Assembly: GCA_023055425.1 (NCBI GenBank)
Contig: JALGPY010000008.1
Coordinates: 19,937,359 to 20,001,358 of the forward strand
Origin: Linanthus parryae
Lineage: Eukaryota > Streptophyta > Magnoliopsida > Ericales > Polemoniaceae
Direction: 5' to 3'
DNA: 64,000 nucleotides
Part shown: positions 12,301 through 63,925 of the stretch, piece after piece
Position numbering within the stretch: the first letter of the stretch is position 1
Layout: the number at the start of each line of letters is the position of its first letter
Made by a program: the position numbers and the translations under genes
The notes under the pieces: model-generated
What the model saw: the letters and a program-made list of their open reading frames with translations, nothing else
Told to the model about the DNA's origin: nothing
The model's database searches: none

Positions 12301-14563
12301 TTGTTCGTTTCTGCTCCATTCTTCTACAATGGGTTTCCTTTGCTCTGTGTACAGCCTTTGACAATACCTGACTACTGGCTTATTTTTTCACAGAGGAACT
12401 TTTGGTAAACTGGTGTGCTGTGTGTGAAGTAGACCCAGAATCGTTGAAGCTTTATTGCTTGGCTGTCTGATATATTTTACATGTCACATTTTTTGGTCAG
12501 AAGGCACACTATTTGAATTTATATTGAATAGGCTAGTCTTCAGATGGATTGGACGTGTCGGAGGGTTTGGTGTTTGGAAGGACAGCAATATCGGACTTCT
12601 GAGGTTACTCTGCAAACCTGTGTGTTCATCAAAGGGTTTTTGCTTCAAATGTTGCTGGAACAGAGATCTGAGGTTCCATTTGCTAATTTAAATATGGTCA
12701 TATTTCGGGTTCTCTATAATCTATATTGCTTATTGGAGGGGTGCCCGTATTCGTTTGGTGTTTCTTTTCCCTGCAGATGGTATTCTGTTAACTATGACAA
12801 TTCCTTTGTAGCCTTCTATGTTTTTCTTTTGCGGGGAATTTATATTACAAAGCAATATGAGCTCTGTAATTGATTTAGTTGTCAAAAGACCATTGTTCAA
12901 TTTCTAAAGATATGTCTGCAATCTGATTGGTTGGGTGCGTCACATTCCATTTTGTTTGCTCAGTTTATGTTTGTTCTTTTGGTATTCTCTTAACGTTTTT
13001 ACTGACCAGTCATTTGGTAGATGAACTCGTATTGTAGTTTTTTGCAATCAACTGTGCGTACTTATTAGTATTCTTCAGTTGTCGGTTTAATGATTGATTT
13101 TCTCTTTTAGGTCGTCGCAGAGCATTGGGTTGTTGTCCTATACATTTTTGAGGAATACAGGGAAGGAAGATATTGTGGTTCCAACGGTAATGATGTTAAA
13201 TTACTATATTGCTTTGCCAAGAAAAATAAAATTAAAGAAACAGTTAAAAGTCTGGGTACATGAACTTTCCCAATTGGCCGAAGTAAATATTCTGACATAA
13301 CTTAGTAACACTCTTTAGCTTTAGAATAATTTAGTTTTAGAATACTATCCAATACAATCAGAAATGCAAGTGAATTAAATCCTTTTTTATTACTGACATT
13401 TTAATATTGATTGAACGAGCTAGCAAAGACCTGTAAATGACATCCAAGTGAAATAATATGCTGATGCACATCCATTAGTATTTTTGAATGATCTATTTAG
13501 TTATAATGCAAGGGTGAATTTTCGGACCCTCTTGGGGGTTTAGTGACAGTAATCTACTGGATGTGCGGTTGGAAAATATTTATCATATTTGTTCCTTTCA
13601 GCAAAATTTATTCCGAGTAGTGTGATGCTTGTTTTGGATATGCCTTAGTCTAAATTTTAATCTAAATATGCGTCTTCAGTTGAGAGAGAATGTGGCAACA
13701 GGCCCCTTATACTTGTTTGTTTGAAATGTTAATTAAGAGATGATCCAACGGTTTAAAATCAACACATCCAATGGCCTAGAAGACAGTTTTTGGGTTTTGG
13801 TATGTAGAATTGTAGATCTTATGTCAATCTTCCTAGGTTTTTTGTACTAAGTTCTGACTATTGCAGCTTGTTTTGTAAATGACATCAACCACAGTTAAAT
13901 TACGAAAGAGGACTTGAGTGGAACAGGATGATACGGACTTCTACCAGTGATTGGGACAGAACTGTAGACACAATAGTTCAATGGTCTCCATTTTCAAGTG
14001 AAGCCGATCTTCTGCGACAGGTACTGGTTCTTTTTCAGTCTTCTATATAGCTTTGGCTGGGCCTGGGAGTATTAATAATGTCTTACTGGCAAAGTTAAAC
14101 TCTTAAGGTTATCAGAACGTGCCAAATTATCGACAACTAACTCCGTCTGGGCTTGCGACTTGCGAGTATTAGTCACCATCCTCGACCACTTATCTGATGA
14201 TTGTTGTTGCCCTCCTTAAATTAATTTGCAGATGCAGATTCTGTTTCCAATTACAAGCTTACACGTAAGACAGGACAATCACAAGTAAATTATATTCTGT
14301 AACTCTATGCAGAATCAAATACGAATGACTCGTAGACTTTTATCTGATCTATAGAAATTGGGTGCTCTAAAATACGTGGATGAGTACGGATCCAAGATTC
14401 AGATGAGGTTTACTGGAAAAATATTTCTACGCGTCTAATATTGAAGATGTGTTTCTTATATCTATTTCAGAAGCATCAGACCGAACTGCTTGAATATATC
14501 ATGCAAGAAAAGTTCTACATTGAAGTAAACTTTGTTAACAAAATAAAAGGAACAGGTTCATTG

Positions 14564-14600
<37 letters not shown>

Positions 14601-27300: not shown

Positions 27301-28502
27301 GTGAAAATGTTCGAAAAATAGCTTTGCAGTACCCCTGTAATCTGTGTCTCGTCCGTCACCCACACCCCTTCATTGTTCTCTAAACCATTAAACTGATTTC
27401 TGGCTCTTCTTATTGTTGCTTTGACATGAAAAAACTTTGTATTCTGATCCCCTTGCTGTAGCCAGCTCACCCTGGATCTCTGTTTCCACATGATTTCTTC
27501 CCTCCTTTGAAGCATGTTGTACTCTTTTGTCAAGCTTCTCTTCTCGGCAAGAACTTCTGCACTTTGTGGTTGTTTGTCCAAGTAGCTTCCCCTCTCACGC
27601 AGCATAGTACACTTCCTGTTAACTTGGCCGAACACTTATTTGTTCCAATCCGAACACTTCTTTCCCATATCCCTGAGCTTGGACATAATCGGATGGTCCG
27701 TTTCTAGCCAAATCCCAGATAAGAAAGAGTTGAACTCCTCATGTGTTTCCCACATATCTTCGTACTGAAATCTCTTCTTACGTCGCCATTCTTTGCTCTG
27801 TCTTTTCCACTCCATAAGGATGGGAACATGGTCTGAATTGGGCCACCACAAGTGTGTGACTTTAGCCCCCTGGAAGCAGTCTAACCAAAGGTAATTTGCA
27901 ACAACCCGATCAAGTCGTTCACGAATATTAGAAAAATCACTTTGATTATTAGACCACGTAAACGGATTACCTTGAAAGCCAAGGTCCAATAAACCTGCAT
28001 CAGTGAGTGCCTCCTTAAACTGATCAATCTGACTAAAACTTACCACAACTCCTCCATCCTTTTCGTCTTGCGATGTGATAACATTGAAATCACCCGCAAC
28101 ACACCAAGGAACATCTGGTTGGGGTACCAGTCTTCTGATCAACTCCCAGGAGAAAGAACGCTCATCTCTATTAGGGTTTCCATAGAAGCCCGTGAACTTC
28201 CACCACTGATTCTCATCCTCCCTCTTTACCCACGAATCAATGAAGAAAAAGGACTGATTAAGAATTTGAACTTGCATACTGTCTTTCCACATTAATGCAA
28301 ACCCCCCCTTCATACCGTCGGAGTCGACTGCGAAACCGTTGTAGTGCGGAAGTCTAGCAAAAACACTCTGCATCTCTTGTCTTTATGACTTGGTCTCCGA
28401 AAGAAAGACCAAATCGGGGGACTTCTGCTTCACTAGGTCGCGAAGCGATAGGAACGTACTAGGGTTCCCAAGCCCACGTACGTTGCAACATAGAAGACTC
28501 AT
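24379..28502 (-). pseudogene. LINE ORF2 polyprotein, broken
   Basis: The frame starts MSLLCCNVRGLGNPS at 28502, typical of plant LINE APE endonucleases. TAA at 28384-28386 cuts it first. The endonuclease continues with GDFNVI and RLDRVVAN to TAA at 27636-27638. The RT section (27635-25557) has FRPISLCTVIYK, AFVPGRLISDN, LDMSKAYDRIEW and the catalytic FADD. A stop at about 25557-25559 follows, and a 1-nt frameshift lies near the A-run at about 25430. The last part (25377-24379) holds the zf-RVT cysteines (CPLCEEC, H-x3-C) and an RNase H-like RVT_3 domain (VNFDGAW, EAKA, EGDAK). Together they give the complete plant L1 ORF2 domain order in four pieces. Confidence 0.9.
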
Positions 28503-29081
28503 TGCGAAAGGCGGGACTGAAGATCAGTCGCCGCCGGAAGAATTGTTGGTGGTGTCTCCTTATCCGAACCCTCCCCTACCACTTCTGACGTCATCTCATC
28601 CCCACTGTTGTTTGCAAAAAGCTGCTTCGCCACCTCTTGCTTCTCTATTATCACAGCTTTTGGGAGCTGTGGGGTTGGGCTAAAATTCATCGTGTCCGAC
28701 TTGCGCTTGGTGACTTGTTTGCGGTTAGTCGAATCTGTCACTTTGGCATTAAACAGATTGACCTTAGCTAAGACTCCCTGTTCGCTTCTCGTCCTTGATG
28801 TCGTGATTTGCGTCACCATCATCTTCTCTCTTTCCTCATGCACCTTTTCCAGCAAGTGGCTTCCTCGACCATTATCCCTTGTTTCTGCCTCTATTTGTGT
28901 CTCTTCCATGGCTGCAAAAGCCACTGTATCACCCTCTGTGTATTGCTGAGACGGTACAATATCTGTTTCCATTGTAGTGATCTCAGTCGAGTGTTGTGCT
29001 ACCCCTTGACTAGATACTGGTTGATCTTCGTCCGCTACCCCCCTGTTCTTCTCCTTCTCCGGCGACGTGGTCCTTCTTCCC
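28499..29081 (-). pseudogene. LINE ORF1 C-terminal remnant
   Basis: An open minus-strand frame enters from the 5' truncation point at 29081 and ends at 28499, overlapping the ORF2 start by four bases. It is acidic and Ser/Thr-rich, with no zinc knuckle left. Position directly before ORF2 identifies it as the tail of ORF1. Confidence 0.75.
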
Positions 29082-29097
29082 TGTGCTATATTGTTTT
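29082..29097. repeat. Right target-site duplication of the LINE
   Basis: Exact copy of the 16 bp at 24331-24346. It marks the 5' (upstream) end of the minus-strand LINE. Confidence 0.85.
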
Positions 29098-29128
29098 GTT
29101 CATTTAGATGACGTCATTACTTCAATGA

Positions 29129-46897: not shown

Positions 46898-48837
46898 ACC
46901 AAGATATTCTTATTAGCCCCATAGAATAGGACAATGTCTGACGTACCTTTATGGTGCCTGAATATTATTTCACTGCCTGCTAGCTCCCTACCTGTATGCG
47001 CTATAAAACGACTTACCACACTAACAACGAATGCTATGTCCGATCGATTGCAAACCATAGCATACATGAGGCTTCCAACAGTGCTAGCATATGGAACCTT
47101 GGACATGTACTCCTTCTCCTCCTTGGGTTGAATGGCGTGCATTCCTAATTTACTAGTTAGTAATCAAATGAGTATCTATAGACTTAGCTGATATCATCGT
47201 GTATATACTTAAGATCTTCTTGATGTATCCCTGCTGTGACAAGAAAAGCTTCTTCTTTTTCGCCTCTCTATAGATCTCAACTCCTAGATTTTTTCGAACA
47301 TCACCTGATCCTTCATCTCAAATTCCGCGTTGAGAGACCTCTTCAAATTATAAATGTCTTTCATATTCTGAGTTACAATCATAATATCATCTACATACAG
47401 AACTAGGTGTATACGTGACTCACCTCGCAAAAGCTTGTGATACCCGCAACCATCATACTCGAACTTCTGGTAACCATTCTTCAACATGAAGTTGTAAAAC
47501 CTCTTGTACCATTGCCTTAGAGACTGCTTAATTCCATAGATAGATCTCTTCAACTTGCACGCCTAGTCTTCTTTTCCACGAACTTGGAATCCTTCTGGTT
47601 GGCTCATGTATCCTCTTCCAACTCTCCGTGTAGGAAAGCAGTTTTCACGTCTATCTGCTAAAGTTCTAAGTCCTGGTGTGCGACCAACGCTAGTAGCACC
47701 CTGATTGAAGTATGTCTGACCACATGTGAGAAGAGCTCGTTGTAGTCAATTCCTTATCTCCAACGGAACCCTCTTGCAACTAACCTTGCATTATACTTGA
47801 CGCCCTCTCCAGAAGTAGTTCCTTCATGTCTTCCAAAAACCCATTTGCAAGTCACTATCTTCCTCCACGATGGAAATTTTACAAGCTCCCCAGTCGAGTT
47901 CTTGCTAAGAGATTCCATCTCTTCCCCCATTGCGGTAATCCGTTGTGCTGACTCAGAACTAGAAATCATATCCTTATAGGTGGACGACTCATCCTCTACC
48001 TCTTCCACTACCTGCAATATATACCCCCCATACAATCATCCATGTATCTTGCTGGAGGATTTACGACTATCCTTGGTCTTCCTTCACCAATACTCTGATG
48101 TAGAGGTTCTGATAGCGATGCATTCTCATCAGAATCTTGCTCTTCTTCCTCTTTGGTCTTCGGTGGTGATAATGGCAATTCAGGCTCCTTTGGATCATTA
48201 GGACATGAGCTTGCCTCCACCTTCTTCACTGCAGCTCCAACCTCTATCACCATGGAACTTCATTTTAGCATCGAACTCTCATCAAAGACTACACTTCTGC
48301 TGAGTATAATCGTGTTGTCCCCCCAAATCTTGTACTCCTTCCCACTTGTCCAATAGCCCTTGAATAATCCCTTATTCTCCCTTGATTTTAGCTTGCCATC
48401 TTCCAAATGATAATAGTCAACGCAACAAAAGACCTTCAGATTCAAGTAATATGATGCTTCGCTGGACCATACCTCAATGGGAATCTTGCATTCTATGTCT
48501 GTGTGCGAGCCCCAGTTTACGAGATAACAAGCCATTGAAACTGCCACTCCGAAAACTTCTAGTAAGTCATGCATTTGAAAGCATACACCTTTCCTACGCT
48601 AAAAGCGTTGATTCATTCTCTTGAATACACCATTCTATTGTGGTGTGTGTCGAACGGTGTGATGGCTAGCAACTCCCTGATCTTTGTAGAATGCATCAAA
48701 CTCTGATGAACAAAACTCCAAGCCGTTGTCCGTGCGTAGCATTTTCACCTTCTTTCCCACCTGATTCTCTACCAATGTCTTCCACTCCTTGAATTTTGCG
48801 AAGGCTTCACTTTTATACTTTATCAGGAATATACAAG
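46898..48837 (-). pseudogene. Copia pol remnant (integrase, RT, RNase H), left part
   Basis: Minus-strand reading gives integrase pieces (LRTDNGLEFCSSEF, HTVRHTPQ), then RT pieces (WVFGRHEG, YNARLVARGF, SIYGIKQS-RQWYKRF, and the catalytic VLYVDDIMIV) and the RT tail (YASTVGSLMYAM, RSDIAFVVSVVSRF). Several stops and frameshifts split it. The integrase is interrupted at 48837 by the large Tat element and resumes beyond 63925. Confidence 0.9.
48833..48837. repeat. Left TSD of the Tat element
   Basis: ACAAG directly before the LTR, repeated as ACAAG at 63926-63930. Confidence 0.9.
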
Positions 48838-49465
48838 TGTGCACAAGAGATTCCGGCGGGGAGACCTCCGTGTACACCGTATGTAGAAGATCAGAGATCG
48901 CACAGGAAAAGTGGGGTTGTGTGTAGGGAGAGAGTAAGGCAGTAGTAATGTCTGAGAGAGAGACAGAGGTTTGGCAGAGCTTCCGCGTATGGCAAGTGTG
49001 TTCCCCCTTTGTATGGAAAGGTTAACGTCCTATATATAGCAGAGAACGTGACCGTTGCAGTGTGGTTAATGCGCCCATTGATGGCGGCTTAATTAGCTTA
49101 ACCATAACGGCACGTTCGTCCGAGTATATAGGGACCGTTACAGCACGTTGTGCGCGAATACCGGAACCGTTACGAGGTTGACCGGGTTTGACCAGATTGA
49201 CCGGGTTTATGGAGCTCGTGCCATAAATCTCTCAAAGCAGTTACTAAAGGTCGCGCGCGGGCTTGGCTCGCACGCGACAGGGCTTACTCTAGCCTCCAGA
49301 CCACTAAGTCCCTACAAGTCCCGTGCAGTGGTATGCGAGGGCTCTGTCTCGCAGCCCCCACATGGATCAGCTCGGCTGGTGATCCATTGTGTGTGGAGCA
49401 CAATATGGTGTGCTAGATGGTTGCCACGTGGCCAAGATCTGTCAGCTCAGAAAGCACTATCTACA
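48838..49465 (-). repeat. 3' LTR of the Tat element
   Basis: Plus-strand edges are TGTGCACAAG and CACTATCTACA. It matches 63298-63925 except at six positions, two of them near 48982-48993 and two near 49185-49194. It has a TATATATAG core at about 49031-49039 and three W-box cores at 49178-49202. Confidence 0.95.
49178..49202 (+). promoter_or_regulatory. Three TTGACC W-boxes in the LTR
   Basis: TTGACC occurs at 49178-49183, 49188-49193 and 49197-49202, about one helical turn apart. The same three are at 63638-63643, 63648-63653 and 63657-63662 in the other LTR. In the element's direction they lie about 140 bp upstream of the TATA core, where a WRKY-responsive enhancer could act. Function is inferred from the motif only. 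Confidence 0.5.
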
Positions 49466-49468
49466 TTA

Positions 49469-49479
49469 GCCCCCTTTCT
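49469..49479 (-). other. Polypurine tract of the Tat element
   Basis: Minus strand AGAAAGGGGGCTAA directly precedes the 3' LTR start TGTAGATAG. This is the expected plus-strand primer position. Confidence 0.8.
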
Positions 49480-50192
49480 GCGCGTGAAGACTCATAGCTG
49501 TATAGACTTCCATGCGCGGAAACCAACATACGCGTTGCCGCCGCGCACCAATTCAAATACGGGTAAATTCAGCCCCCGTGCGTGCCATTATGACCTAAAA
49601 CCCCTAGAGTCGTGCCGTCTGGCTTCTAGGGTTTTAGGCGTGACGTCAGCTTGTCCTGTGATTGCGCGATTCGACGGTGACGGTTGCGATTCGACTACTG
49701 AAAGGACGCAACCCTTCATTGTTTTTGGATAAACACTTTGTATCCCCTACTGTTGCAAAGCATCACTTCTTTCTCTTAAAGTGAATGGTACCCGGAGATC
49801 TTCGAGAGCAGATTCAGATAATCAATCATCAGTTCAAAACTGCAAATCGTCTTCTTCAACTGTGCATATCCAAGCAGGCTTCAAGAAAACAAGGTTAGCC
49901 TTGTTCAGTTTTGATTTAAGATACCAGTGTTTGCCTTGAACTGCGTTGAATCGGTAAACCCATATAATCTGTTGAAACTTGTGAAGAAGCTTCAAGCTTT
50001 GGACCCAATTGCGGCTTGATTTCTCAATAATAAGGACCTTGGATAGGGTTTTGAAATCCCCTGATAATGCAATCCTCTAACTTCTGAAATTGATACCAGA
50101 AACTGTTCATCTTTCTTTCTGTAGATCTTGAATCTCGAAATTCAAACTGAAGTAGCATATTTCTCCCCCCTTTTTCTTGCTCTTCCGCAGGA
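49480..50192 (+). promoter_or_regulatory. Upstream region and likely 5' leader of the antisense PMD gene
   Basis: No protein is called here. A leader intron is possible: AAG|GTTAGC at 49894 as donor and CTTCCGCAG at 50190 as acceptor, two bases before the PMD start codon. The promoter would lie next to or within the 3' LTR. No unambiguous TATA box is seen on the plus strand outside the LTR. Confidence 0.45.
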
Positions 50193-53100
50193 ATGGCCAA
50201 GACAAAAGGAGCCAAACCCATCAAGGAGGACGAAGAGATCCCCGATCTTCCGCAGGCTTTGTGGCGAAAAGCCCCCTATTTAGGTGGCCAAGATTTCTAC
50301 CATGCGAGGGTTAAGGCGAAGAGAATGCCTGCTCCTGTCCCGGTTGAGGGATTGCTAACACTGACTCGCCCAGTTAACTCAGCCTTGCTCGAGTTGATTG
50401 GTTCCGAGGATGTAGTTCGATTGGGAATCGAGAATGGGTACTTCCCCTATACTGCGATTTCTACCCAGGCGTTTGTCCAGAAATTGGACTATATGGATGA
50501 GTGGATTGACCATGTGTTGACCAATCATGCCGCGACTCTTGATGAGGCCGGCGTATACTTCGCTGTTCGTGCTATGAAGGGTGCTGCCGTGAAGCTGGAC
50601 CAGTCCATGCTTCTAGACCTTCTTTCCCGCTACTCACCTGCGACTCACACATTCCATTTTGCTGAGTTCGAGGCTGCCCCTACACTCGAGGACGTGCAGA
50701 TGTTGTACGATCTTTCTCCCATGGGCGAGGTGGACCCTTTGAGTCCTTTGAGGACGGCTGCGGAAATTGCTTTGTACACGCAGATGGAGGAATGCCTGGC
50801 AGAAGTAAAGAAAATCTCCACTCGGTGGACTACTACGAAAGCCCTTCCAAACTGGCAACTGGTTGATACGTCTGCGAAGAACACCTGGAACAAATGGTTG
50901 CAGTACTTCTTTCGAGACTATGCGAACAGCAGCATTACTAAGAAACTTCTGAGTGAGAACCCAGAGGCCGAGAATTATGTGGAGGGTAAGGGCTATCACT
51001 TGACCCTCTGTGCTTTCCTCTGTGCTTGGTTGTCGAGGTACTTGATTGACGGTCACCCACATGACGGGGTCTTTTACCATGTTTTGCCAATTGCTGTGAG
51101 GCTCGCTCTTGGCCAGAGAGTCGCACTCGGACCCTTGGTCTTGGGCACGCTGTACTATAGACTTGATCAGTTGGTTCTAGCCATGAAAGAGTCGCGTGGC
51201 CGCCTCGATGTATTGACTTTTGTCAATATTTCCTTTTTGACAATGTGGGTCTTCGAGCGGTGGCCATCCTATGCCCCAACTGCTCTCAAACCCGACAAGT
51301 GGTGTCCCCCAGGCGAGACGGAGGAGCGCAACAGCGGCAGAGCTGCGAGGTGGTTCGGAGCGAACAATACCAAGTGCGTTTGGAGCTTGATATGCGACAA
51401 ACGGAAAGAGTTTACTGCCAGGCCCTATGTCACATGTGTTGAGAACGTGCGATGGTTTCCAAAGCTGTACCCCTCTAAGGGTATTGTCTTCTCAAAAGAA
51501 CTCCTCTTCGAAGAGGGATCGCATTTCCATGAGCGCTATCGCGAGTTCTTTTGCTGGTGTCTACGAGGTTCCCTTCCTGCCCTCGCAGAGCATATTCGTG
51601 AGCTCGCGCCAAGGTATGAGAGGATTACCGTGGATGTTGACCCCACTCGAGTTTCTCCCCAGTTCGGCTTTGATGCAGTGGCACCATCAATCTGGCCCCA
51701 GTCCATTATCAGAGGTTGCTATAAGCGCTTGCTAACAAAGGAGTGCAAGACAGTATTCATGAATAATCTTCCCTTTGAGCAGCCCGCAGGGACCCGCGAG
51801 GGTGGTTGTTCCCAGAACTGGCTCGCATACTGGATTGCCCAGCAAACGAGGATTGAGACGCAGTCGGCCGCGCATCCAAGTAGAGCTCCCTTAATCAAAA
51901 GAAATTCTTTTCCGTTTCGCCCCAATTGCAGTCTGAGCGAGTCTGAGTATGGTTACTACTCGTTGCTGGATCATGAGAACCATTTGTGCCCTGACGTCAT
52001 TTTGAAGGAAAAGATCGCCGCAGTTAAGAAGGGCGACACGCATGTCGTCAGATATAGCGGGGCCTTTGCTAAGGTAAGCAATTTTTCGCGTGCGTTAAGC
52101 TTCTTGATTTCCTTATGCTGACGCCTTTATTCTGTACTGTTTTGCTGTAGTGTCATGTGCGGAGATTCACATCTGGTGATCGCTCCAAGTCATTGGTTGA
52201 CACCATTGTTGCCACCAGAAGACAAAAGCAGCCGTTTCTGCTAGCATGGAGGATGGACCCTGAGGTCGAAACCAAGATTCGCGCAGTCATGAATGCTTTT
52301 GCTGACTCGCTGATAGACAATGCTCCGGCCTCGTCTCCTCCCGGAGATGATCCGTCCCCTCCAGCGACTGCGGCGCCGAGAGTGAAGAGGCCCAGGCAAA
52401 AGGGAATTACAATTTCTTCCCCTAGAAGCGCTCCAACTTCTCCTCTGGCGAGGTCCCTTTCTGTCAAGGATAAAGGCAAAGGTCGCATGCCCCGCAAAGT
52501 GCGGAAAGAGCTCGCAGTTGAGACTTTCGTTCCATTCAACCAGGAGGAAGGAGAGAGGCAGGAGCCCAGATAAAGTGATGAGGAAGAAGAAAGAACAGTG
52601 GTGATGCATGAGGAAGAATCAGGAGGTACCTCCGTCGCATTCCCTTTCCCATTATCGCAATTCTTTTGCAATTCTTTCTTACACCAATCATATCTTCGCA
52701 GATGATGATGATGATGATGATGAGATCATCGGTGGCGTTTTGGCCAAGAGACAAAAGAGAGATACCCATTCTGGCATTCCAGACGATCCCATAAGCGAGG
52801 ACGTTCTTGCTGAGTCCCGGAAGACAGCCGCGGAAGCTGCTGAAAGAAGAAGGCAGCGGGAAGAGGAGGAGCTCCAGCGTGCGAGACAGCGGAGCCTCGA
52901 AGAGCAGCATGTTGACGACTTAGTGCGTCCAGTTGACGAGGAAGATGTACTCCCCGAAGTGGTGACTCCTCATGCGGAGGAGGAAGATGAGGTTCCAGAA
53001 GAGGATGCAGCAGCCCTGGAGCAAGCCCAAGCAGACTTCGAAGAAATCGCAGGCGGCGATAAAGGTGAGATCTTCAATCTCGCAGTAACTTATAGAGATG

Positions 53101-54500
53101 TTATTGTGGGTGCGTTAAAGCATGGCGTGTCAAAGGCTGACATTCGCCGTTGGCTAGTAGACAAGTGCGGAGAACCTTCAGGTAATCATTTGAGCGATAC
53201 GCATGTACTAGGCTTTAGCAACTTGAAGCAGAATCATGACTGGTTTATTCGCATCCCAGGTCATGCTCGTTTTAAGGACCTGCTTAATGAGGACACACTA
53301 ATAGGGCATGGTTCCACGTCTTTAGTGTATGACGAAGATACACCAATCCCACCTTCGCGTGGAGGTGCTTGTTCTTAGCTTTAGCAAAGATAGTAAAATA
53401 TAATTCAATGCGAGTCACCTCATACCATCGCATTTTGTATCGCAGGCAATGTTGAGGAACACGCGCCGGAGCAAAGAAGTCGGCCTTCTGCGTCCTATGT
53501 TCCGATTCCGAGCCCTCATACTGAGAAGCCCGTCGCAGCTACTGATCACGCAGGTGAGCCTCTCGAGGACATCATCGAACTTTCCGACGATGCTGAAGCT
53601 GTTGCTGTGCTAATGGATGAAGATGCCCATGCTGGTGCTGAGGAAGTAAGGACAAGTACTGTCGATGCTTCCGCATCTGAGAATATCCCTCGCCAAGCGA
53701 CCTCGGCTGTCCCTTCGCCTCCAGCGATGACTGAGTCGGCGACATCTATTCCTGCGTGGAGCTTTTGGGGCTCGCAGGTTGGGAATGCAGTCGCAGCTGG
53801 TGCGGCCTACACTCTTCCTTCTAACTATGAGGAGTTAGAGCTCGCGGCTGACAGGAGAGCCATGGAGCAAGGGCAGTCTTCAACGACTCCAGTAATGCGC
53901 ATTCCTTCTCTTCGTGAGATTCTCGAAGGAACTGGTAAGTAGTGATTCACTGTTTGCATCTCGCATGGTGTATTTGCGAGTTTGATAGCATAACTTAGCT
54001 TTGACATTGCTTCAGGTTTGGAGCAAACTGATGTGGACTGGCTAGTTCGGATGCGCCTCACCTACCCCCGATCGTTTGCAAGATCTCTGGAGATAGGGCC
54101 CTTTGACAGGAGGCTGTTTCTTACCGAAGCCATTTGGATTTTGGAGCAGCTGTCTGCGGCCACGCCTGAGACCATTTCTGTCCAGAGTGCCGAATTGCTT
54201 TGTGGCATGTGCCAGAATCTCTTGACCAAAGTTCAAGGCAGGCTGGGTTTCAGATTTCTTATGAAAAGAGTTACTCTGATTCGCGCAGCCCTAACCTTGA
54301 AGCTCGGCCACCAGAACCTCGCAGCTGAGAAGCAGAAGGTGGAGCAGCAAAAGCAAAAGGTTGACGAAGCTCTGAAGCTCTATCATGAGATGAATGCCAA
54401 GTGCGAGCAACTGAAACAAGAAGTGGAGCAGGTAGAGAAGCTGAGCCATCAGTTCGCGCCCCATGATTCCTTGATCAAGAATTTGCTTTTGACTTTTTGA
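50193..54500 (+). CDS. Plant mobile domain (PMD, aminotransferase-like) gene carried antisense by the retrotransposon
   Basis: Five coding exons: 50193-52073, 52151-52625, 52702-53364, 53446-53934, 54016-54500. All junctions are GT-AG and in phase, total 3993 nt, 1331 codons. The PMD core in exon 1 has THTFHF (151-156) followed by PTLEDV, the family's signature. Residues 1-60 are charged. Exon 3 starts with a poly-Asp run from (GAT)n and a charged coiled coil (RRRQREEEELQRARQR). Exon 5 ends in a longer coiled coil (KQKVEQQKQKVDEALKL). One TAA at 52571-52573 interrupts exon 2; the same frame continues open to the donor. Host PMD proteins (MAIN, MAIL1) act in the nucleus and affect gene expression and TE silencing. 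A role for this copy is unknown. The gene converges on gag-pol and must be transcribed separately. Confidence 0.85.
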
Positions 54501-56026
54501 ATTTGGAAAATAGCAAGGGAATTAACTGAAACATTAATGTAATGTCTGAAACATTAATGTAATGTTGCTAGGGTTTCTCCCCCTTTTTTTTTAACAACAA
54601 GAATCAACTTGCCCGTTTTGCCCTTTCCGGGATTTGATAGGATATCTCTGTGCATATCCAATTATGACATCAGCAATTGATACTCTGCTTGATTTTCGCG
54701 CTAATTTCTCGGCAGATAAGCACGATTTGTTGGGAAGTCCATCCGAATCATGACTATCCGTCATTTATTAGGATACGCAACCGAATCGTCGTAGCCTTTA
54801 GTAGGGTAATTAATCGTTACCGCTTTTCAAGGCGTAAGTGATTGACCTTACCCTCTTTTCAAATTCTGCTGACTCATCTTTGGCAACTGAAGAGTCTCCA
54901 CAAGGTCTACATAAACTCTGTCTTTGCCATTTGGGTTCTTCATCCCAAAAATGTGCTTTGCCGTGAATCCTTACGACTGCTGGCTTCAACGCTTGTTTTT
55001 CGTTGAATCATGGCAACCTCAAGTTGTGAATCCTGAGTTTGCGCTTTGTGTTGTAGAAGTAGTTTCCAAGATCCACTTTATGAGGCTTACTGCTCTTTAT
55101 AACCATCATAAAGAAGATGGAGATGATATCTCATGTGTGTTCGAAGAATTTTCTTCGTGTATTATGTGTGCAGGTCATGTTTCCGGCCGCCTCCCGGTGA
55201 GGTGCAGCGCCAAAGTGACCGTGCTACCGTCTCGTAATGAACGGCGGAATTCTCCTCCAGCATCCCTGGAGGAGGATTTCTTGCCTCTTCGTTCGTGAGC
55301 TCAGGGTGGCGCGTCAATGCCCTTGTCTATCATGACAAGGAGTCCATCACCAGAGGAATGACTGCTTCCCCTGTTTTGCACGGCGGTATACGCCAGAACA
55401 GGAGGTTCCTCCGGTGCCTATCTTGATCAGACAGAGGCCTTTGTCACCTCTTGGGGTCTTGGACGTACCGTTACCCAGATCTTGCCGCTAGGGACGTAGC
55501 GAATGACGAGTTGATCTCTTCGCAGCAGCATCCCTTTTGCTATAGATCTTTGGCCGTAGATCTGCGTATTGCATCGCCGGTGTTAGGACCGGTGGGTTCA
55601 TCCTTTCTTAGTTAGGATTCCCTCGATGTGTTACTTCTCGCTTGTAAGCTACTTTTCGAACGTATTGTAAGCCGTGTTGGCTGTGTAGTTAGATTTGAGC
55701 TTTTTCGCTTGTAAGCTGCTATCTAGATAGATAAATTGTAAGTCTTTTCGACTCATCATGATAAATAGCCTTTTTGTATTATCTGCTGCCTTGTCACAAC
55801 AAAATACTATTTCGCATGCGTTTCGGCATATTTTGCCTTGCATAATGCTATATACACACTTCGCATTTGCTATCTGCCATATAAATTCGCAGATGTTTTG
55901 CTAGATCGTTCGAGATCATATTTTTCGCAGCTGTGCCATCTTGGCAGATGGGCTTGTGATTAGCCTTTGATGCACGTGCTATCATATCAGATAGACCTTT
56001 GTAAAGTACTTAAGATCATTCTCACA
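54501..56026. other. Spacer between the PMD gene and the tandem repeats
   Basis: No supported coding sequence; the 124-codon plus frame at 54924-55298 has no recognisable motif. From about 55690 on, the text drifts into degenerate copies of the downstream repeat (CGCAGATG, GCTATC, AGATCAT pieces). It would form the 3' ends of both convergent transcripts. Confidence 0.5.
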
Positions 56027-56712
56027 ATATTGCTATCGTAGCAGATAGTCTTTAGTAGATCAATTAAGATCGTTCTTCGTGCGAGTTACTATCGTAGCAG
56101 ATAGGCTTTTCTAGATCAATTAAAATCGTTTTTTCACATGAGCTGCTATCGTAACAGATAGGCTTTGGAAGATCAATTAAGATCGTTTTGCCGCATGAGT
56201 TGCTATCGTAACAGATAGGCTTTTAGAAGATCAATTACGATCGCATTTGCATAAGTTGCTATCATAATAGATAGGCTTAGATGATCAATTAAGATCGCAT
56301 TTGCATAAGCTGCTATCGTAACAGATAGGCTTTAAATGATCAATTAAGATCGCATTTGCATAGGCTGCTATCGTAACAGACAGGCTTTAATGATCAATTA
56401 AGATCGCGTTTGCATAGGCTGCTATCGTAACAGATAGGCTTAAATGATCAATTAAGATCGCATTTGCATAGGCTGCTATCGTAACAGATAGGCTTAAATG
56501 ATCAATTAAGATCGCATTTGCATAGGCTGCTATCGTGACAGATAGGCTTAAATGATCAATTAAGATCGCATTTGCATAGGCTGCTATCGTAACAGATAGG
56601 CTTGAATGATCAATTAAGATCGCGTTTGCATAGGCTGCTATCGTGACAGATAGGCTTAAATGATCAATTAAGATCTCATTTGCATAGATTGCTATTGTGG
56701 CGAATAACCATA
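56027..56712 (+). repeat. Array of about 13 tandem 54-57-bp repeats in the Tat element
   Basis: CTATCG-like anchors start at 56033, 56089, 56146, 56203, 56259, 56313, 56368, 56422, 56476, 56530, 56584, 56638 and 56692. Spacing is 56-57 bp at the left and exactly 54 bp in the last six steps. Each unit contains a small inverted repeat CTATC-n6-GATAG and GATCAATTAAGATC. The pol-side units are most alike, so homogenisation is recent there. Confidence 0.95.
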
Positions 56713-56906
56713 GCTAACAGTTATAACAAAGCAAAATTGACATCCAGAAATATGAAGTTTCTCATTTGGGAGAATTTCTTTATTATAACGCTCTCATATG
56801 GGAGAGATGAGCTTACAATCCTCTCATATGGGAGAGGAGATTGTGTAAATCGTAGCCATACAAGACATTAAGCGACGTTATAATAAAACGCATGAAATGA
56901 GAGAAG
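56713..56906. other. Pol 3' flank with three ATATGGGAGA motifs
   Basis: CTCATTTGGGAGA, CTCATATGGGAGA and CTCATATGGGAGA recur at about 56761, 56792 and 56822, a short degenerate repeat of about 30 bp. No coding sequence. Confidence 0.6.
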
Positions 56907-59900
56907 TCAGGGATAGTACTTCTTAATCCAGCGCATGTTGACTGAACTCGGGGTTGAGGTTGTGCCGTGCAACCTTCGTATGCTGCAATAGCCACTGTCG
57001 AAGACTTCTGTGACTTCGAAGGGTCCTTCCCAATTGGCTGCGAACTTTGGGTGAGTCGCTTCTCGCATGCAGTGATCAGATGCGCGCAGCACCAAGTCTC
57101 CAACTGCGAAATCTCTTCGCTGGACTGTCTTATTGTAAGCGCGAGCGATTCTTTCTTGATATCGCTTGTTGGTCCTTTTGGCTTGTTCTCGCTTTTCCTC
57201 CAGCAAGATTAAGTCATGATCGCGTTGATTTTCATAGAGTGCGTGGAAGGCCAGCCTTGCCGAATTGACTCTAACCTCCGCAGGTACCACGGCCTCGGCC
57301 CCATAGCATAGTAGGAACGGCGAGGCCCCCGTGGGTGTCCTTGGAGAAGTTCGGTAGGCCCACAGAGCTATGCTTAGAGAGTCAGCCCACTTCTTGTGGT
57401 CATCCGCGACCATCTTGCTCAAAATCCTCAACAGCGTTTTGTTGGTCGCTTCGGCTTGTCCGTTCCCTTTCGGGTAATAAGGGGTAGAACATATCTGCCT
57501 GATGTTGTACTCCGCTAACTTCGCAGCTACCTGGCGATTAACAAAGGGAGTACCGTTATCTGAAAGAATGGTGTTTGGGATTCCGAACCTGCATATAATG
57601 TTGCCTTGAATGAAGTTGACCACAGCTAGCGCATTTCCCGTCTTGAGTGGTATTGCCTCCACCCATTTGGTGAATAGCTCAGTCGCAGTGAGAATGAAGT
57701 GATTCCCGTGTGACGTTGGTCGGATGGGACCGATGAAGTCTAGAGCCCATGTGTGAAATGGCCATGGTGTTCCTAATGCATGTAAATCCACGGCGGGAGC
57801 GTGCACTAGATTTCCTTTGAATTGGCACTCTTGGCAGCGTCGTACTTTAGTGCGGCAATCGACCTCCATCGTGGGCCAGAAATATCCAATTGAGAGGAGC
57901 TGCCTGCATAATTTCGCACCTCCTTGGTGTTCCACCTGATGAGAGAGATCCATGACTTCTTGTGCTTCTCTGCCGTCTAGACATCGCAGCAAGTTGCCCT
58001 CGTGACCTCTTCGCCAAAGCAGGTTTTCCTGTACTACATATCGAGATGCTTTCCTCTTCAATTTCTCGGCTTCTTTTCTCGATTCGGGCACGGTGCCCTG
58101 AGTGAGAAAATCAAAGAGTGGCTTCTTCCAATCCGTTTCGTCATCCGTTAGAGCGATGAGTAAAGAATCTTTGATTAGTGCGCAACTCTCGCACTTCCCT
58201 TGTATTAGGGCTGCGGCTGTTGACATGTCTGGCCAATGAATGCCATATCTCTGAGCCTTCCGGTAGATTGACACCTCGCTTTCTCCGCAAGCATGTTGGT
58301 GAATCTTTTCTAACAATAGTTGTCCCTCTTGCTCGGAGACGCATCGCATGAGTATTCCGCCAGGACCCTTGTAGTAAAGGGTGTTGTCGTGTATACAGTA
58401 CCCTTTTGTGAGTGCCCAGCTTTCACTGCTTGTGCCTTCCCCAATAGCTTGTAGGATTGCTTTTCTCCAATCCGTGTCATCCATGTGTTCGTCACCGCTC
58501 GCATCTTCTGTCAATGCCGACGATGTTCGCACTTCAATGGAGATTCGTGCGGGACATTTGTCTGTGCTGACCTTAGATCCCAAGGTTGCCAGAGCGTCCG
58601 CATGCCTGTTGTCTGCCCGGGGCTTGTGCTCGTACCTCACATCGCAGAATTGCTGCACCAGCTTTTGTACTAGGGTGCGGTAAGACAGGAGGTTGATCTC
58701 CTTCAAACCATACTCGCCCGAGGCTTGCTTAACGATCAACTTGGAGTCTCCCATGACCGTTAGATTGCTCACTTCCAAAGCTTTCGCCGCACGGAGCCCC
58801 GCGATGAGAGCCTCATATTCCGCTTCATTGTTTGTGACTGCGAAGTTGAGCTTTGCGGACATCTGTATGACCTCCCCATCTGGTTTGGTCAAGACTATCC
58901 CAATGCCTCCACCTTTCCTCGTTGACGAGCCGTCGAAGTGGAGCGTCCAACAGGGCACGTCGATTGCATAGATCTCAGGGCCTTCGAGCTCTTCCTCGAT
59001 CACGGGCTCGTGGCTGTTGTCGGGGAACTGTGCCAGCAGATCCGCTACCGCCTGCGACTTGATCGCTCGCGGTCGTACGCATGTGATATCATATTGAGAG
59101 ATGGTCATGTACCATTTCCCCAATCTCCCGCCAGGAGTAGTGTGAGTTAGCAAATATCGTATGGGGTCGCTCTTGGTGACCACTACTACTTTGTGTGATG
59201 CAAAGTAGTGTTTCAATTTCTCTATTACGAAAAAAAAAGCAAGGCAATGACGTTCGATGTCTATGTACCTCGATTCAGCAGGCTGCACGATGCGAGAGAT
59301 GTAGTAGATAGGCCTTTCCTGGCTTTCGTACTCCTGAGCCAAGAGTGCTCCTATGGATCTCCTTGTTGATGTCAGATACAGCAGAAGCGGTGACCCCAGT
59401 TGAGGTGCGATCATTATTTTTGAGGACGTCAGCAAATCCTTCAGCTTTTCGAACGCAGCTTCGTGCTCCGGTGCCCAGTAGTACACGGCGTCCTTCTTGA
59501 GAAGAGTACTAAAACAGCATGTGATTTCGGAAATCGCTGGGATGAATCTCCGCAGATAGGATAGCTTTCCTAAAAATGTCTTCAAGGCACTCTGGTTATG
59601 GGGCGGCGTCATGCCGGTTATGGCTGATACTTTCGCAGGGTCAGGCTCGATTCCTTGGCGATGAACTACGCATCCCAAGAACTTCCCTGATGTTACCCCA
59701 AATGCGCATTTCATGGGATTCATCTTTAGTTGAAAGCGTCTACATCTATTGAACACCTTCCATAGATCTGCGAGGTGATCTGCTTCGTGCTTGGATTTAA
59801 CCACCAGGTCATCCACATAGAATTCCACTTCTTTATGCATCATGTCGTGGAACAGAGCCATCATGGCGCGCTGATAGGTTGCACCAGCGTTTTTGAGACC

Positions 59901-60644
59901 GAAAGGCATCACTGTGTAATTGAACACCCCCACCGGAGTGATGAATGCAGTCTTCTGCGCGTCTTCGGGGTCCATCTTGATCTGGTTGTACCCGCTGAAG
60001 CCATCCATGAAACTGAACATGCGGTGGCCCGCTGTTGAATCGATAAGCAAATCGATGTTAGGTAGTGGAAAATCGTCCTTGGGGCAGAAGCGATTGAGAT
60101 CTCGGAAATCCACGCAGATGCGGAGCTGTCCGTTCTTCTTCACCACTGGCACGATGTTGGCCAGCCATGTGGGATGATGATTTGGCTCTATGAATTTGGC
60201 ATCCAGGAGTTTGACAATCTCCTGCTTAATTTTCACGTTAAGCTCCGGCCTGAAGCTCCTTGTGCTCTGCTTTACCGGCTTAGACCCTGGAATGATGTCT
60301 AAGCGGTGCATAGTGATGCTTGCATCCAGTCCCGGCATCTCATCATACTCCCATGCGAACACATCCTTGTATTCAGTTAGGAGCTGTAGCAATCCTAGCT
60401 CCTCTTCGCTTGTGAGGTCCGCACTTAGAAAGACTGGCCTTTTCTTTTCCTCGTTCGGGCTGAGGAACACTTCCTTTAGTTCTTGCTTTTGCGGTCTGGG
60501 CCTGTCTTCCATGCATTCAGGCGCTTCTTTGAGTTTCTCGTCTGGAGTGTCCTGTGTTGGCTTTTCCGTCAGCGCAATTTGCTCGATTTGATTGATTTGC
60601 CCAGGGATATCCCCATGCCCGTGTGAGAACATCCCCGCGCACCT
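56907..60644 (-). CDS. Tat-type pol: RT, RNase H, second RNase H, duplicated zinc module, integrase
   Basis: First ATG at 60632 gives 1241 residues; the frame is open up to the TGA at 60645 that separates it from gag-protease. RT: about 150-330 with LRICVDFRDLN and YVDD (272-275). First RNase H: about 385-520, degenerate in its catalytic acids (LYLTSTRRSIG). Second RNase H: about 563-690 with FDGS (566-569), NNEAEYEAL, MGDSKL and RHADALA, all four acidic positions kept. Two zinc-binding-like modules follow: about 720-820 (CESC) and about 834-940 (HQ-x2-H...CQEC). Integrase core: ALDFIG (963-968), SDNGTPF (1024-1030) and the NGQAEATN Glu. The ORF looks intact. It makes the enzymes for reverse transcription and integration of the element. 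Confidence 0.95.
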   Translation of the reverse strand, partial: RCAGMFSHGHGDIPGQINQIEQIALTEKPTQDTPDEKLKEAPECMEDRPRPQKQELKEVFLSPNEEKKRPVFLSADLTSEEELGLLQLLTEYKDVFAWEYDEMPGLDASITMHRLDIIPGSKPVKQSTRSFRPELNVKIKQEIVKLLDAKFIEPNHHPTWLANIVPVVKKNGQLRICVDFRDLNRFCPKDDFPLPNIDLLIDSTAGHRMFSFMDGFSGYNQIKMDPEDAQKTAFITPVGVFNYTVMPFGLKNAGATYQRAMMALFHDMMHKEVEFYVDDLVVKSKHEADHLADLWKVFNRCRRFQLKMNPMKCAFGVTSGKFLGCVVHRQGIEPDPAKVSAITGMTPPHNQSALKTFLGKLSYLRRFIPAISEITCCFSTLLKKDAVYYWAPEHEAAFEKLKDLLTSSKIMIAPQLGSPLLLYLTSTRRSIGALLAQEYESQERPIYYISRIVQPAESRYIDIERHCLAFFFVIEKLKHYFASHKVVVVTKSDPIRYLLTHTTPGGRLGKWYMTISQYDITCVRPRAIKSQAVADLLAQFPDNSHEPVIEEELEGPEIYAIDVPCWTLHFDGSSTRKGGGIGIVLTKPDGEVIQMSAKLNFAVTNNEAEYEALIAGLRAAKALEVSNLTVMGDSKLIVKQASGEYGLKEINLLSYRTLVQKLVQQFCDVRYEHKPRADNRHADALATLGSKVSTDKCPARISIEVRTSSALTEDASGDEHMDDTDWRKAILQAIGEGTSSESWALTKGYCIHDNTLYYKGPGGILMRCVSEQEGQLLLEKIHQHACGESEVSIYRKAQRYGIHWPDMSTAAALIQGKCESCALIKDSLLIALTDDETDWKKPLFDFLTQGTVPESRKEAEKLKRKASRYVVQENLLWRRGHEGNLLRCLDGREAQEVMDLSHQVEHQGGAKLCRQLLSIGYFWPTMEVDCRTKVRRCQECQFKGNLVHAPAVDLHALGTPWPFHTWALDFIGPIRPTSHGNHFILTATELFTKWVEAIPLKTGNALAVVNFIQGNIICRFGIPNTILSDNGTPFVNRQVAAKLAEYNIRQICSTPYYPKGNGQAEATNKTLLRILSKMVADDHKKWADSLSIALWAYRTSPRTPTGASPFLLCYGAEAVVPAEVRVNSARLAFHALYENQRDHDLILLEEKREQAKRTNKRYQERIARAYNKTVQRRDFAVGDLVLRASDHCMREATHPKFAANWEGPFEVTEVFDSGYCSIRRLHGTTSTPSSVNMRWIKKYYP

Positions 60645-63257
60645 TCATATGCGATAGCATTTCTTCCCATTGGCGTAGAAGCTCTCTATCTCCTTGCCTT
60701 CGGGGTCATGCTTTGCGATTCTCTTCAGAGTATACACATTCTTTCGATGGTATGCGATACGCGGCGCCTCTTCGCGTGTAGGCGGCTTTTCCTTGGCATC
60801 TTCCCTTGTCACCATTACTCCCGCAGGTGACTGGTCCTTGATATCCTCCCAGAGAGGCAAAGGAGTAGGGTTGAATGGTCCCGGCGTTTGCTCATCCGCC
60901 ATTTCGGTGAACCACACTGCCTCGCTAAGATGTGCTTCGTCCAAGTTGAATGGATTCGTCGAAGCCGGGATCTCGACTATTCTGTCATTCCAGATAGCTT
61001 TCATGACCTGGTGAGCCGTTGAAGGAACTGCGTCGAAGCGATGAATCCAGGCTCGACCTATGATAATGTGATACGTGGTGTTCGCGTCTATGACATAGAA
61101 TTTTGCTGAGCACTTGATTCTGCCAATCTGAATGCCCAGGCGGATCCATCCGATTGTCATTCTCGAGTCGCTTCCGAATCCCATCAGGGGAGAACGACGC
61201 CTGACAATCTTGTGCTCGGGGATCCCTGCTAGCTTCAGTGTGTGGAGCGAAACGACGTTGACCGCTGCCCCTCCATCGACGAATGCTCGTTTGAACTCGA
61301 CGCCGTTGATGATGGCCGTCACGTATAGAGGCCTCTGGTGGCTCGCATCTGTCTTCTTGTCGCTGGCAGAAAAGGTCATAATCTTTTCTGTAGAGCGAGA
61401 CGCTCTGATGACTTTCCCGTTGGAGACTACAAGATCCTCCTCATAGTCCTCTGCTACCCTTAAGATCGCCTTCGTCATTTCTGTCCGGCATTTCTCCGAG
61501 AAATTCATCTCGTCGAAGAATCTGCTGAAGCCGTGCGACCCCTTCATTCGGTCGGCACGCTCATCTTCCGTATCCATGCTGTAGTCCTCGTCTTCGTGGA
61601 CCTCGGCAATGATGGGTAGACCATCCTCTGCGACTTCTTCCAAGTCTACGATCGAGATCATGGCGACCTCTTTGCCTTTCGACCCTTGCTCCGCATGAGC
61701 AGGAAGTGGGTTATTGCGCACGTCCTTCCTGTGATCGCTGACGATCAGCTCACCGTTCTTCATCTTCTGGTCGAACGCGAACCTGAGCTTCTTACATTCT
61801 GCTGTGGGATGCATGACCTTGCCGTGGTACTCGCACCACTTAGGGTCCCTTACCATCTCCTTGGAGGGTATCTTCTCGAGCGGCGGTAGGACACCGTCCT
61901 TACGCCACTGCCTGCAGAGGTCGCTTGCCTCCTCCACCGAGCATGGCAGGGGTGGTACGTCGAAGTTCACAACCTTCGCTTGCTTCTGGGGTGAAACTGT
62001 ATTGACCTCAGCTTCGCGTCCCCTCTTGTAACTGATCCTCCCGATCTTGTAGGTGGTGGTGCTCGGAGGTCGCTCCGGAGCGTTCTTCTTTTTCTGTCTC
62101 TCGACTATAGGCTCGATGTTCTTCGTGCATTCAATTAGCTTTGAAAACGTAGGTGTTTGCAAATTGATGAGCATACCTTTGTATTCGTCTCGCATGCACT
62201 GCAGGCATATCTCTACGAGCCGGCTTTCGAGCATTGGATCTTTGCACTCCAAGGACTTCGCCCTGAATTTCTTGATGAAAGTGATCCCATCCTCCTCGCG
62301 CTTCTGATACATCCGCGAGAGATGGATCATTGTCACCTTTTCTTCCATCTGGAAGAACTTGGTGTAGAACTTCTGGACCATGCCGTCCCAAGTCTTTACG
62401 GATCCGGCTTCTAGTGTTCGGTACCACTTGTACGCTACGTTCCCTAAGGATTTTGGGAACTCTCGCATCAGCAGTTTGGGATCGGCTCCGTATGGCCCCA
62501 TGACATCAATGAAACGCATGACATGCTCATGAGCGTTTCCGTTGACATCCTCGAACTTGTCCCATTTAGGAGCTTTGTACCCCGCGGGGTTAGGCATGAG
62601 ATAGATCTCTCGTGGAATGGGTGGATCGTTGTCCAACTTCGGGATAATGGTATCCGCGAATGACTGATGAGCCAGAATAGTATCCATGCGCTTCTGCCGA
62701 GACGTCATGCACTCTGGAACGCTTCCTTCGGTATCTGAAGGAGGGGTTGCCGCAGGCGGAGGCGACACATATGCCGTCGAAGGATTGGGAACGTATTGAC
62801 TACTCGCATTGCCCCAGACCGCCGTTGAAGGAGGCAAAGGGTACTGCAGAGTTGGGTTAGACGCCAAAGCCGAGGGCTGAGGAGTGTGAGCAGCGAGAGG
62901 CAACATCTGAGCTGTTGACCCCTAGATCGAAGGCAGCTGCGTAGTCGCTGGTGGAGTCTGCAGATTAGGGTTGGGAGGCGTGGTTGACACTCCCAGTCCC
63001 GAAGCAGTAGGGCCTCCTCCTCCTTGAGAGACGGCGGTGGCTGACGAAGGATTTGGTGCAAGGGTGCCCAGAACGGCCAAGATCCGTTCTAGCTGCGCGG
63101 ATTGGGCTTTGAGAGCTTTCGCCTGACTTTGAACAGTGGCGTCCAAAGACTCTAGCGTCGGTGTCTCGCCGGGAGTGGTAGGAGTACGGCGGGTTTCCTC
63201 TCCCGAAGCGGTTTCGGTGGAAGGCGATCTGTTGCTGATATCATCCTCCTGAGACAT
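60645..63257 (-). CDS. Tat-type gag-protease, one in-frame stop
   Basis: The frame starts MSQEDDISNRS at 63257 and runs 871 codons to TGA at 60645-60647. TAG at 62922-62924 (codon 112) interrupts it, but the same frame resumes at once and stays open. Order: acidic and Pro-rich N terminus, retrotransposon gag domain (KWYRTLEAGSVKTWDGM, about codons 230-330), a CEYHGKVMHPTAEC knuckle-like motif, and an aspartic protease region with FVDGGAAVNVVS. The DGG form replaces the usual D-S/T-G, as is common in plant Tat proteases. The stop between gag-protease and pol is in the same frame, so pol expression needs readthrough or another mechanism. The start 63257 is chosen because the GTG upstream lies inside the primer-binding site. 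Confidence 0.9.
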
Positions 63258-63276
63258 GGTTGCTTTGGATGGTAAG

Positions 63277-63294
63277 TTCACGTCGGGTTCACCA
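63277..63294 (-). other. Primer-binding site matching tRNA-Trp
   Basis: The minus strand reads TGGTGAACCCGACGTGAA three bases (TTT) after the LTR end. From memory, plant cytosolic tRNA-Trp(CCA) ends TTCACGTCGGGTTCA plus CCA, which is fully complementary. The spacer and orientation agree with minus-strand transcription. Confidence 0.8.
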
Positions 63295-63297
63295 AAA

Positions 63298-63925
63298 TGT
63301 GCACAAGAGATTCCGGCGGGGAGACCTCCGTGTACACCGTATGTAGAAGATCAGAGATCGCACAGGAAAAGTGGGGTTGTGTGTAGGGAGAGAGTAAGGC
63401 AGTAGTAATGTCTGAGAGAGAGACAGAGGTTTGGCAGAGCTTTCGCGTATGGAAAGTGTGTTCCCCCTTTGTATGGAAAGGTTAACGTCCTATATATAGC
63501 AGAGAACGTGACCGTTGCAGTGTGGTTAATGCGCCCATTGATGGCGGCTTAATTAGCTTAACCATAACGGCACGTTCGTCCGAGTATATAGGGACCGTTA
63601 CAGCACGTTGTGCGCGAATACCGGAACCGTTACGAGGTTGACCGAGTTTGACCGGATTGACCGGGTTTATGGAGCTCGTGCCATAAATCTCTCAAAGCAG
63701 TTACTAAAGGTCGCGCGCGGGCTTGGCTCGCACGCGACAGGGCTTACTCTAGCCTCCAGACCACTAAGTCCCTACAAGTCCCGTGCAGTGGTATGCGAGG
63801 GCTCTGTCTCGCAGCCCCCACATGGATCAGCTCGGCAGGTGATCCACTGTGTGTGGAGCACAATATGGTGTGCTAGATGGTTGCCACGTGGCCAAGATCT
63901 GTCAGCTCAGAAAGCACTATCTACA
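63298..63925 (-). repeat. 5' LTR of the Tat element
   Basis: Promoter-bearing copy for gag-pol. It has a palindromic TATATATAG core at about 63491-63499, leaving about 190 bp to the LTR end, the three W-boxes at 63638-63662 and several AACGG/CCGTT cores. It matches the other LTR except at six positions. Confidence 0.95.

Follow-up and report, generated by a model that had tools for sequence, protein, structure and literature searches.

Within a 64,000-nucleotide stretch of the Linanthus parryae genome (contig JALGPY010000008.1, positions 19937359-20001358; assembly size 1.51 Gb), from here on referred to as the window, we analyzed a long terminal repeat (LTR) retrotransposon of the Ty3/gypsy Tat type that carries a plant mobile domain (PMD) gene on its opposite strand. 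The element lies on the minus strand at positions 48838-63925 of the window (15,088 bp), and the plus-strand PMD gene sits between its integrase and its 3' LTR (Table 1). The LTRs have TG...CA ends and differ at 6 positions over 628 bp each (K80 0.0096), and a 5-bp target duplication, ACAAG, flanks both sides of the element. Assuming 1.3e-8 substitutions per site per year, a general rate not specific to this species, the insertion would be ~0.4 million years old. The LTRs, the target duplication, and the Pfam matches bear out the initial annotation, made from the sequence alone, which had described a complete minus-strand element carrying, between integrase and 3' LTR, a gene with five coding exons on the plus strand.

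Table 1. Features of the retrotransposon and its antisense gene. Coordinates are positions in the window; samples of copies are defined in the text.
Feature	Coordinates	Strand	Remarks
3' LTR	48838-49465	-	628 bp, 6 differences from the other LTR; ACAAG outside both
Putative promoter and first leader exon	49466-49893	+	Conserved, p 0.040 over 49466-49892
Probable 5' leader intron	49894-50190	+	GT at 49894, AG at 50189-50190
Exon 1	50193-52073	+	627 codons; PMD at residues 127-500
Intron 1	52074-52150	+	77 nt; GT in 29/30, AG in 30/30 copies
Exon 2	52151-52625	+	dN/dS 0.241; includes the in-frame stop of this copy
In-frame TAA, exon 2	52571-52573	+	In 0/28 other readable copies (29th gapped)
Intron 2	52626-52701	+	76 nt; GT in 30/30, AG in 28/30 copies
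Exon 3	52702-53364	+	Charged linker; end picked by coding signal
Intron 3	53365-53445	+	81 nt; GT in 30/30 copies at three donors, AG in 30/30
Exon 4	53446-53934	+	dN/dS 0.416
Intron 4	53935-54015	+	81 nt; GT in 21/21, AG in 21/21 copies
Exon 5	54016-54500	+	Helical/coiled-coil-like C terminus; stop at 54498-54500
Tandem array	56031-56695		54-bp unit, ~12 copies; Tandem Repeats Finder and repeat search
pol (reverse transcriptase, RNase H, second RNase H, integrase)	56910-60644	-	Pfam
In-frame TGA, gag-protease/pol border	60645-60647	-	In 6/6 aligned copies
gag and protease	60648-63257	-	Start set at the open frame's first ATG
TAG in gag	62922-62924	-	In 0/6 aligned copies
Primer binding site	63276-63294	-	Just inside the 5' LTR; from adjoining sequence
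5' LTR	63298-63925	-	628 bp

The five coding exons join in agreeing phases, as the initial annotation had proposed, giving 1,330 codons to the stop with one stop inside; the intron phases are 0, 1, 1, and 1. A hidden Markov model search placed the PMD (PF10536) on exon 1 with E=1.3e-27 and 97.3 bits against a curated cut-off of 34.9, the very check that had been suggested for the gene. No Pfam domain was found above cut-off in exons 2-5, and exon 5 weakly matches helical domains. When the exon 1 protein was searched in a collection of 5.8 billion sequences, the plant content of which is uncertain, 7,995 candidates were scored and none was a relative at E 0.001. Three Protein Data Bank (PDB) sequence matches to chitin synthases (E 0.47) were taken as chance.

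The description of a five-exon antisense PMD gene thus stands, with the correction that the TAA in exon 2 (codon 768 of the joined frame) closes the frame after the PMD in the window's copy. A second stop, the TAG in gag, is likewise private to this copy among those aligned (0/7 before one row aligning at <50% identity was dropped). The window's copy is therefore damaged, i.e. structurally complete but not intact. Among other copies, exon 1 is open in 23 of 29 in one sample (A) and in 6 of 12 in another (B). Sample A consists of the window and 29 copies selected for a protein match to exon 1 that runs without a break, with the query extended 45 nt into intron 1. Sample B consists of the window and 12 of 40 copies listed by similarity to the non-coding leader, and it does not share the lean that such a selection brings to sample A.

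The antisense gene belongs to the family and is abundant in the genome. A 30-base pattern for the exon 1/intron 1 boundary, with 3 mismatches allowed, occurs at 238 places, 119 on each strand (reversed control, 0 places), and the exon 1 protein search scored at least 69 places, namely the window and at least 68 others at 95-97% identity. Further, the pattern for the spliced exon 1/exon 2 boundary was found at 0 places genome-wide, also when ambiguity codes for the commoner family variant were used. An absence of intronless copies at this boundary is expected if the gene travels only in sense genomic RNA, and 238 unspliced against 0 spliced boundaries fit the earlier argument that the antisense orientation lets the introns survive. 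Retrocopies of spliced mRNA, which would have served as proof of splicing, were accordingly not found at the exon 1/exon 2 boundary.

We next consider the exon borders that were less readily placed. For intron 3, phase-1 GT donors occur at 53065, 53182, and 53365, each kept in 30/30 copies of sample A. We set the end of exon 3 at 53364 because the open frame and the ratio of nonsynonymous to synonymous divergence (dN/dS) favor the donor at 53365: positions 53067-53363 contain no stop in any of the 30 copies and have a dN/dS of 0.376 (confidence interval (CI) 0.230-0.667). Both other frames of the stretch between the first and last of these donors contain stops in all 30 copies. Alternative splicing at the end of exon 3 is possible. 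Upstream of the ATG, the mean pairwise difference (p) among the 30 copies of sample A rises from 0.040 in the putative leader exon to 0.086 over 49895-50190, with 0.060 in the last 65 nt. This rise fits a leader intron at ~49894-50190, which we consider likely from the sequence pattern.

All five exons evolve as protein under purifying selection. As judged from sample A, the dN/dS of exon 1 is 0.093 (CI 0.073-0.119), that of exon 2 is 0.241, that of the 52704-53063 part of exon 3 is 0.238, and, for the window and 20 copies of that sample, those of exon 4 (from position 53493 onward) and exon 5 are 0.416 (CI 0.290-0.615) and 0.229 (CI 0.146-0.348). In the stated frame, the ratio thus lies below 1 throughout (0.09-0.42, with upper CI limits of 0.119-0.615), whereas the shifted frames of the exons give 0.71-2.46. 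Insertions and deletions point the same way. In sample A, the length of such events relative to the window is a multiple of 3 in 40 of 43 cases for exon 2 and in 30 of 34 for exon 3, against 4/36 in intron 1, 0/10 in intron 2, and 11/59 in the 5' flank (intron 3 is without indels), although these events are not independent, because related copies share them. Mean pairwise p is 0.044, 0.044, 0.058, 0.079, and 0.054 in exons 1-5 and 0.086, 0.095, 0.105, and 0.119 in introns 1-4. The initial annotation had named beforehand three outcomes that would speak against it (no PMD, a private insertion, and dN/dS near 1 between copies), and none of them came true.

Two other regions of the element also vary little. 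The average LTR divergence in sample A is 2.8%, compared with 16% at the silent sites of exon 1; so low a value could reflect either strong constraint on the LTR and leader or an exchange of successful LTRs between lineages. Positions 54501-54790, 3' of the antisense gene, are also conserved (p 0.039).

Our preferred reading, to which we assign a probability of about 0.6, is that this family carries a second transcription unit that would encode a PMD protein of ~1,330 residues acting on host silencing, with introns kept by virtue of the reverse orientation. The unit would comprise five coding exons and probably one leader exon, and its product would combine the PMD with a charged linker and a helical C-terminal part. 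The promoter of the gene would lie within the 3' LTR or beside it, and splicing would take place in the plus orientation only; the introns would survive retrotransposition because the sense genomic RNA presents the splice sites reversed. We are less sure of what the protein does, but it may work in the nucleus as an accessory factor and benefit the element by acting on the MAIN/MAIL1/PP7L silencing pathway, for example as a decoy partner. MAIN and MAIL1, together with PP7L, are required for transposon silencing (PMC7156037, PMC5418596), and silencing by the PMD pathway acts partly via MORC1 expression (PMC9899485). PMDs have been reported from flowering plants only (PMC8616336), and the suggestion that transposon-encoded PMDs act against silencing is already in print. 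We put forward a counter-silencing role of the antisense protein as a hypothesis, in line with that suggestion.

Several points weigh against this reading. First, the promoter, the splicing, and the protein are all predicted from sequence. Second, the choice of sample A leans it to low dN, to an absence of indels in exon 1, and to a kept first donor; in sample B, exon 1 contains stops in 5/12 copies, and its dN/dS is 0.312 (CI 0.265-0.369). Third, the retention of splice sites offers only mild support, because background GT and AG dinucleotides in the introns and leader are kept almost as well (0.805 on average, with 47% kept in at least 29/30 copies). Fourth, exon 4 evolves barely more slowly than the introns, and one frame of the 81-nt intron 3 also gives a dN/dS of 0.47 (CI 0.21-1.02), so that short stretches alone prove little. 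We note, with respect to sample B, that its 6 open copies together with the window give 0.167 for exon 1 and its 6 broken copies 0.403, a pattern to be expected where selection operates in source elements and ceases after insertion.

The alternative that survives best accepts the protein but places its work in the element's own cycle, in bringing the integration complex to the nucleus or to heterochromatin, rather than in host silencing. In agreement with it, exon 1 is under selection comparable in strength to that on pol, as would befit a component of the replication machinery: 0.167 in the open-frame copies compared with 0.135 in the integrase part of pol (57165-58460; the window and 8 of the 12 sample B copies; 4 of the 12 pieces were dropped because nothing matching the window's pol lay where it was expected, and an in-frame stop occurs in 3 of the 9 rows analyzed). 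Further, nuclear accessory roles have been proposed for such open reading frames (ORFs) in a review (PMC7264820), which also reports the GENE23 protein of Grande to be nuclear. Taken as a complete account, this alternative appears possible but doubtful; as a role for the protein, we regard a part in the element's own nuclear cycle as nearly as likely as counter-silencing.

The remaining alternatives concern where the gene came from and whether its protein matters, and those on its origin turn on the host PMD genes. A profile search found at least 127 PMD matches in the genome (117 scored of 11,793 candidates), a partial list, since the window's own gene is not among it. We fetched 28 PMD loci outside the family and built a tree from 16 of them and 3 element rows, the other 12 being fragments, two-piece genes, or near-identical. 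In this tree, in which the branches are long, the element PMD splits off deeply, and its sole sister is a gene at C57:122.94 Mb (support 100/99, at 30-32% identity). The same gene is the nearest of the 28 fetched loci in pairwise comparison with exon 1, at 30% identity over 552 residues (E 4e-66). The initial annotation had considered the silencing factor to be possibly host-derived; a recent derivation from a host gene is not borne out by these comparisons, and recent capture appears unlikely from the 28 loci compared, which come from partial lists and may miss a closer host gene.

One explanation of the relation to the C57:122.94 Mb gene is domestication, i.e. that the host gene descends from the element's gene, which we consider unlikely though by no means far-fetched. 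This gene is the closest PMD locus examined, is collinear with exon 1 over the 552 residues, beyond the domain, shows no similarity to the window's gag or pol within 8.6 kb on its downstream side and 3.0 kb on its upstream side, and also ends in a helical exon, after what we read as two phase-0 introns. However, the direction of descent is indeterminable from one genome, and, although intron 1 is of phase 0 in both genes, the other intron phases differ. The homology of the C-terminal exons is also unconvincing: element exon 5 and the last host exon align with a score of 82 (z 5.3; 0/300 shuffles as high; reversed control, 42), but the part outside the coil gives only z 1.9 (54/1000 shuffles reach that score), and the host exon is matched at E 11 by a profile built from 21 copies of the element. 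A related and slightly more tentative proposal, also improbable in our judgment, is that an intron-bearing gene was captured in reverse at the DNA level and kept, with its leader and coding introns, through many rounds of reverse transcription, that its PMD-coiled-coil protein interferes with MAIN/MAIL/PP7L, and that the C57:122.94 Mb gene represents either the donor line or a copy taken back. Either ancient capture or domestication may account for this relation.

That antisense RNA rather than protein matters, with double-stranded or phased small RNAs setting the level of the element, is very unlikely. Antisense transcripts with small-RNA roles are discussed in PMC7264820, and PMD genes in tea yield phased small interfering RNAs, but the codon-level constraint in five exons and the frame-preserving indels argue for a protein rather than an RNA. 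Least credible of all is a host PMD gene that was captured recently or inserted in this copy only: PMD genes are abundant, the antisense gene resembles an ordinary plant gene, and a close donor could have escaped a comparison of 28 loci taken from partial lists, but the 238 boundary places refute a private insertion, a dS of 0.13-0.16 among element copies indicates that the gene is not a new arrival in the family, and long branches separate it from even the nearest locus. The private insertion and the non-coding explanation were thus rejected on the copy and selection data.

Other PMD genes were noted in the course of these searches. At least ~70 of the listed PMD matches, by visual count, belong to three tandem clusters, at C57:126.3-127.7 Mb, C46:154.9-155.9 Mb, and C2:29.2-29.9 Mb. 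Six dispersed PMD genes (on C68, C46, C90, C79, and C2) form two groups that are ~56% identical to each other, with open frames of 634-990 amino acids, and may be mobile or host genes; for one of them, the 4.5 kb on its 3' side match neither gag nor pol of the window, and a basic linker and a coiled-coil-like ORF follow there.

With regard to the element itself, the primer binding site resembles what we take to be the 3' end of tRNA-Trp. Retrotrans_gag scores above the Pfam cut-off and Asp_protease slightly below it. The pol frame contains reverse transcriptase (residues 169-326), RNase H (418-518), RVT_3 (570-687), and the integrase core (962-1058), in this order, and the 54-bp tandem array is placed between pol and the antisense gene. 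The TGA at the gag-protease/pol border is common to all aligned copies (7/7 before one misaligned row at <50% identity was dropped) and is a possible readthrough signal.

Tat elements are defined by two RNase H domains, and the second lies between RNase H and integrase in Ogre and Retand (PMC6317226). Both features are found here, with RT_RNaseH and RVT_3 above cut-off in one pol and RVT_3 preceding the integrase. The element is therefore a Tat element of the Ogre/Retand type, but it is neither a typical Retand, because the ORFs of the five exons contain no TRP28 domain (PF04195) at E 0.1, nor a typical Ogre, because gag-protease and pol abut in one frame through the shared TGA with no intron region between them. 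In Ogre, a region with a mean length of 274 bp, reported as an intron, separates the corresponding ORFs (Neumann et al. 2019, PMC6317226). A PMD in the extra ORF, which is a feature of Ogre though not a defining one, is present in this element and in 57% of Ogre (PMC6317226). In Retand, 97% of clusters have an antisense ORF encoding TRP28 (PMC11963269).

That Gypsy elements encode PMDs and that Tat elements carry antisense ORFs is already known, and a counter-silencing role has been suggested in print. The PMD is the most frequent extra domain in one survey, in 10 species, or 40 with a looser filter (PMC9289625). The PMD-A1/A2 clades (Ikeda et al. 2017, PMC5418596) resemble the present case in being PMDs of plant Ty3/gypsy elements that stand apart from host PMDs; the parts consulted of that report do not give strand, exon structure, or selection. 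The extra ORFs (aORFs) of Retand, Grande, and RIRE2 likewise lie antisense between pol and the 3' LTR with tandem repeats nearby (PMC7264820, PMC11963269), and the word "intron" is used 0 times in the main text of these two papers. MAIN and MAIL1, the host PMD-C proteins of Arabidopsis, share with the element's gene the PMD family and the link to transposon silencing, but they help to silence transposons and the predicted product has a long linker and a helical end instead (PMC7156037, PMC9899485). The AlkB N6-methyladenosine demethylase ORF of orchid Ty3/gypsy elements (PMC9289625) is also an extra ORF in an element nested in Tat that may affect host regulation, but its domain is a different one, and it is biochemically proven. 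The 2020 review (PMC7264820) calls for a search for antisense and spliced transcripts, which suggests that the point was still open then. We found no description of a multi-exon antisense PMD gene with selection on each exon in the open literature searched, a scope that does not include the 2011 Steinbauerova and 2013 Grande papers.

Elsewhere in the window, a copia-type remnant with what is presumably an integrase-like frame (48260-48837, minus strand; SH3_retrovirus domain at 48263-48598) adjoins the insertion point, and the minus strand at 24379-29113 holds LINE-like ORFs, one of which includes a reverse transcriptase domain. On the plus strand, exons at 3300-18000 resemble a MORC-family ATPase gene, with DNGGGMDP...CMSLGYS at 8466-8576, which we take to be a MORC-family motif. 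The best PDB match of this motif is MORC3, a weak one (E 0.16 over 37 residues), and no Pfam match was found for the MORC-like exons. MORC1 in Arabidopsis depends on the PMD pathway (PMC9899485), but the proximity of a MORC-like gene to a PMD-carrying element is probably a coincidence.

Surveys of open frames, such as the Retand survey with its ORF cut-off of 600 bp (PMC11963269), would catch exon 1 and perhaps exon 3 of this gene but not the whole gene. Overall, the family indicates that genes with several exons can persist in a retroelement, where a gene in the sense orientation should be lost to splicing, and that such a gene is under selection at the protein level in every exon. Further, the exact exon coordinates and the large number of natural copies make the idea that transposon-encoded PMDs serve as counter-silencers directly testable.

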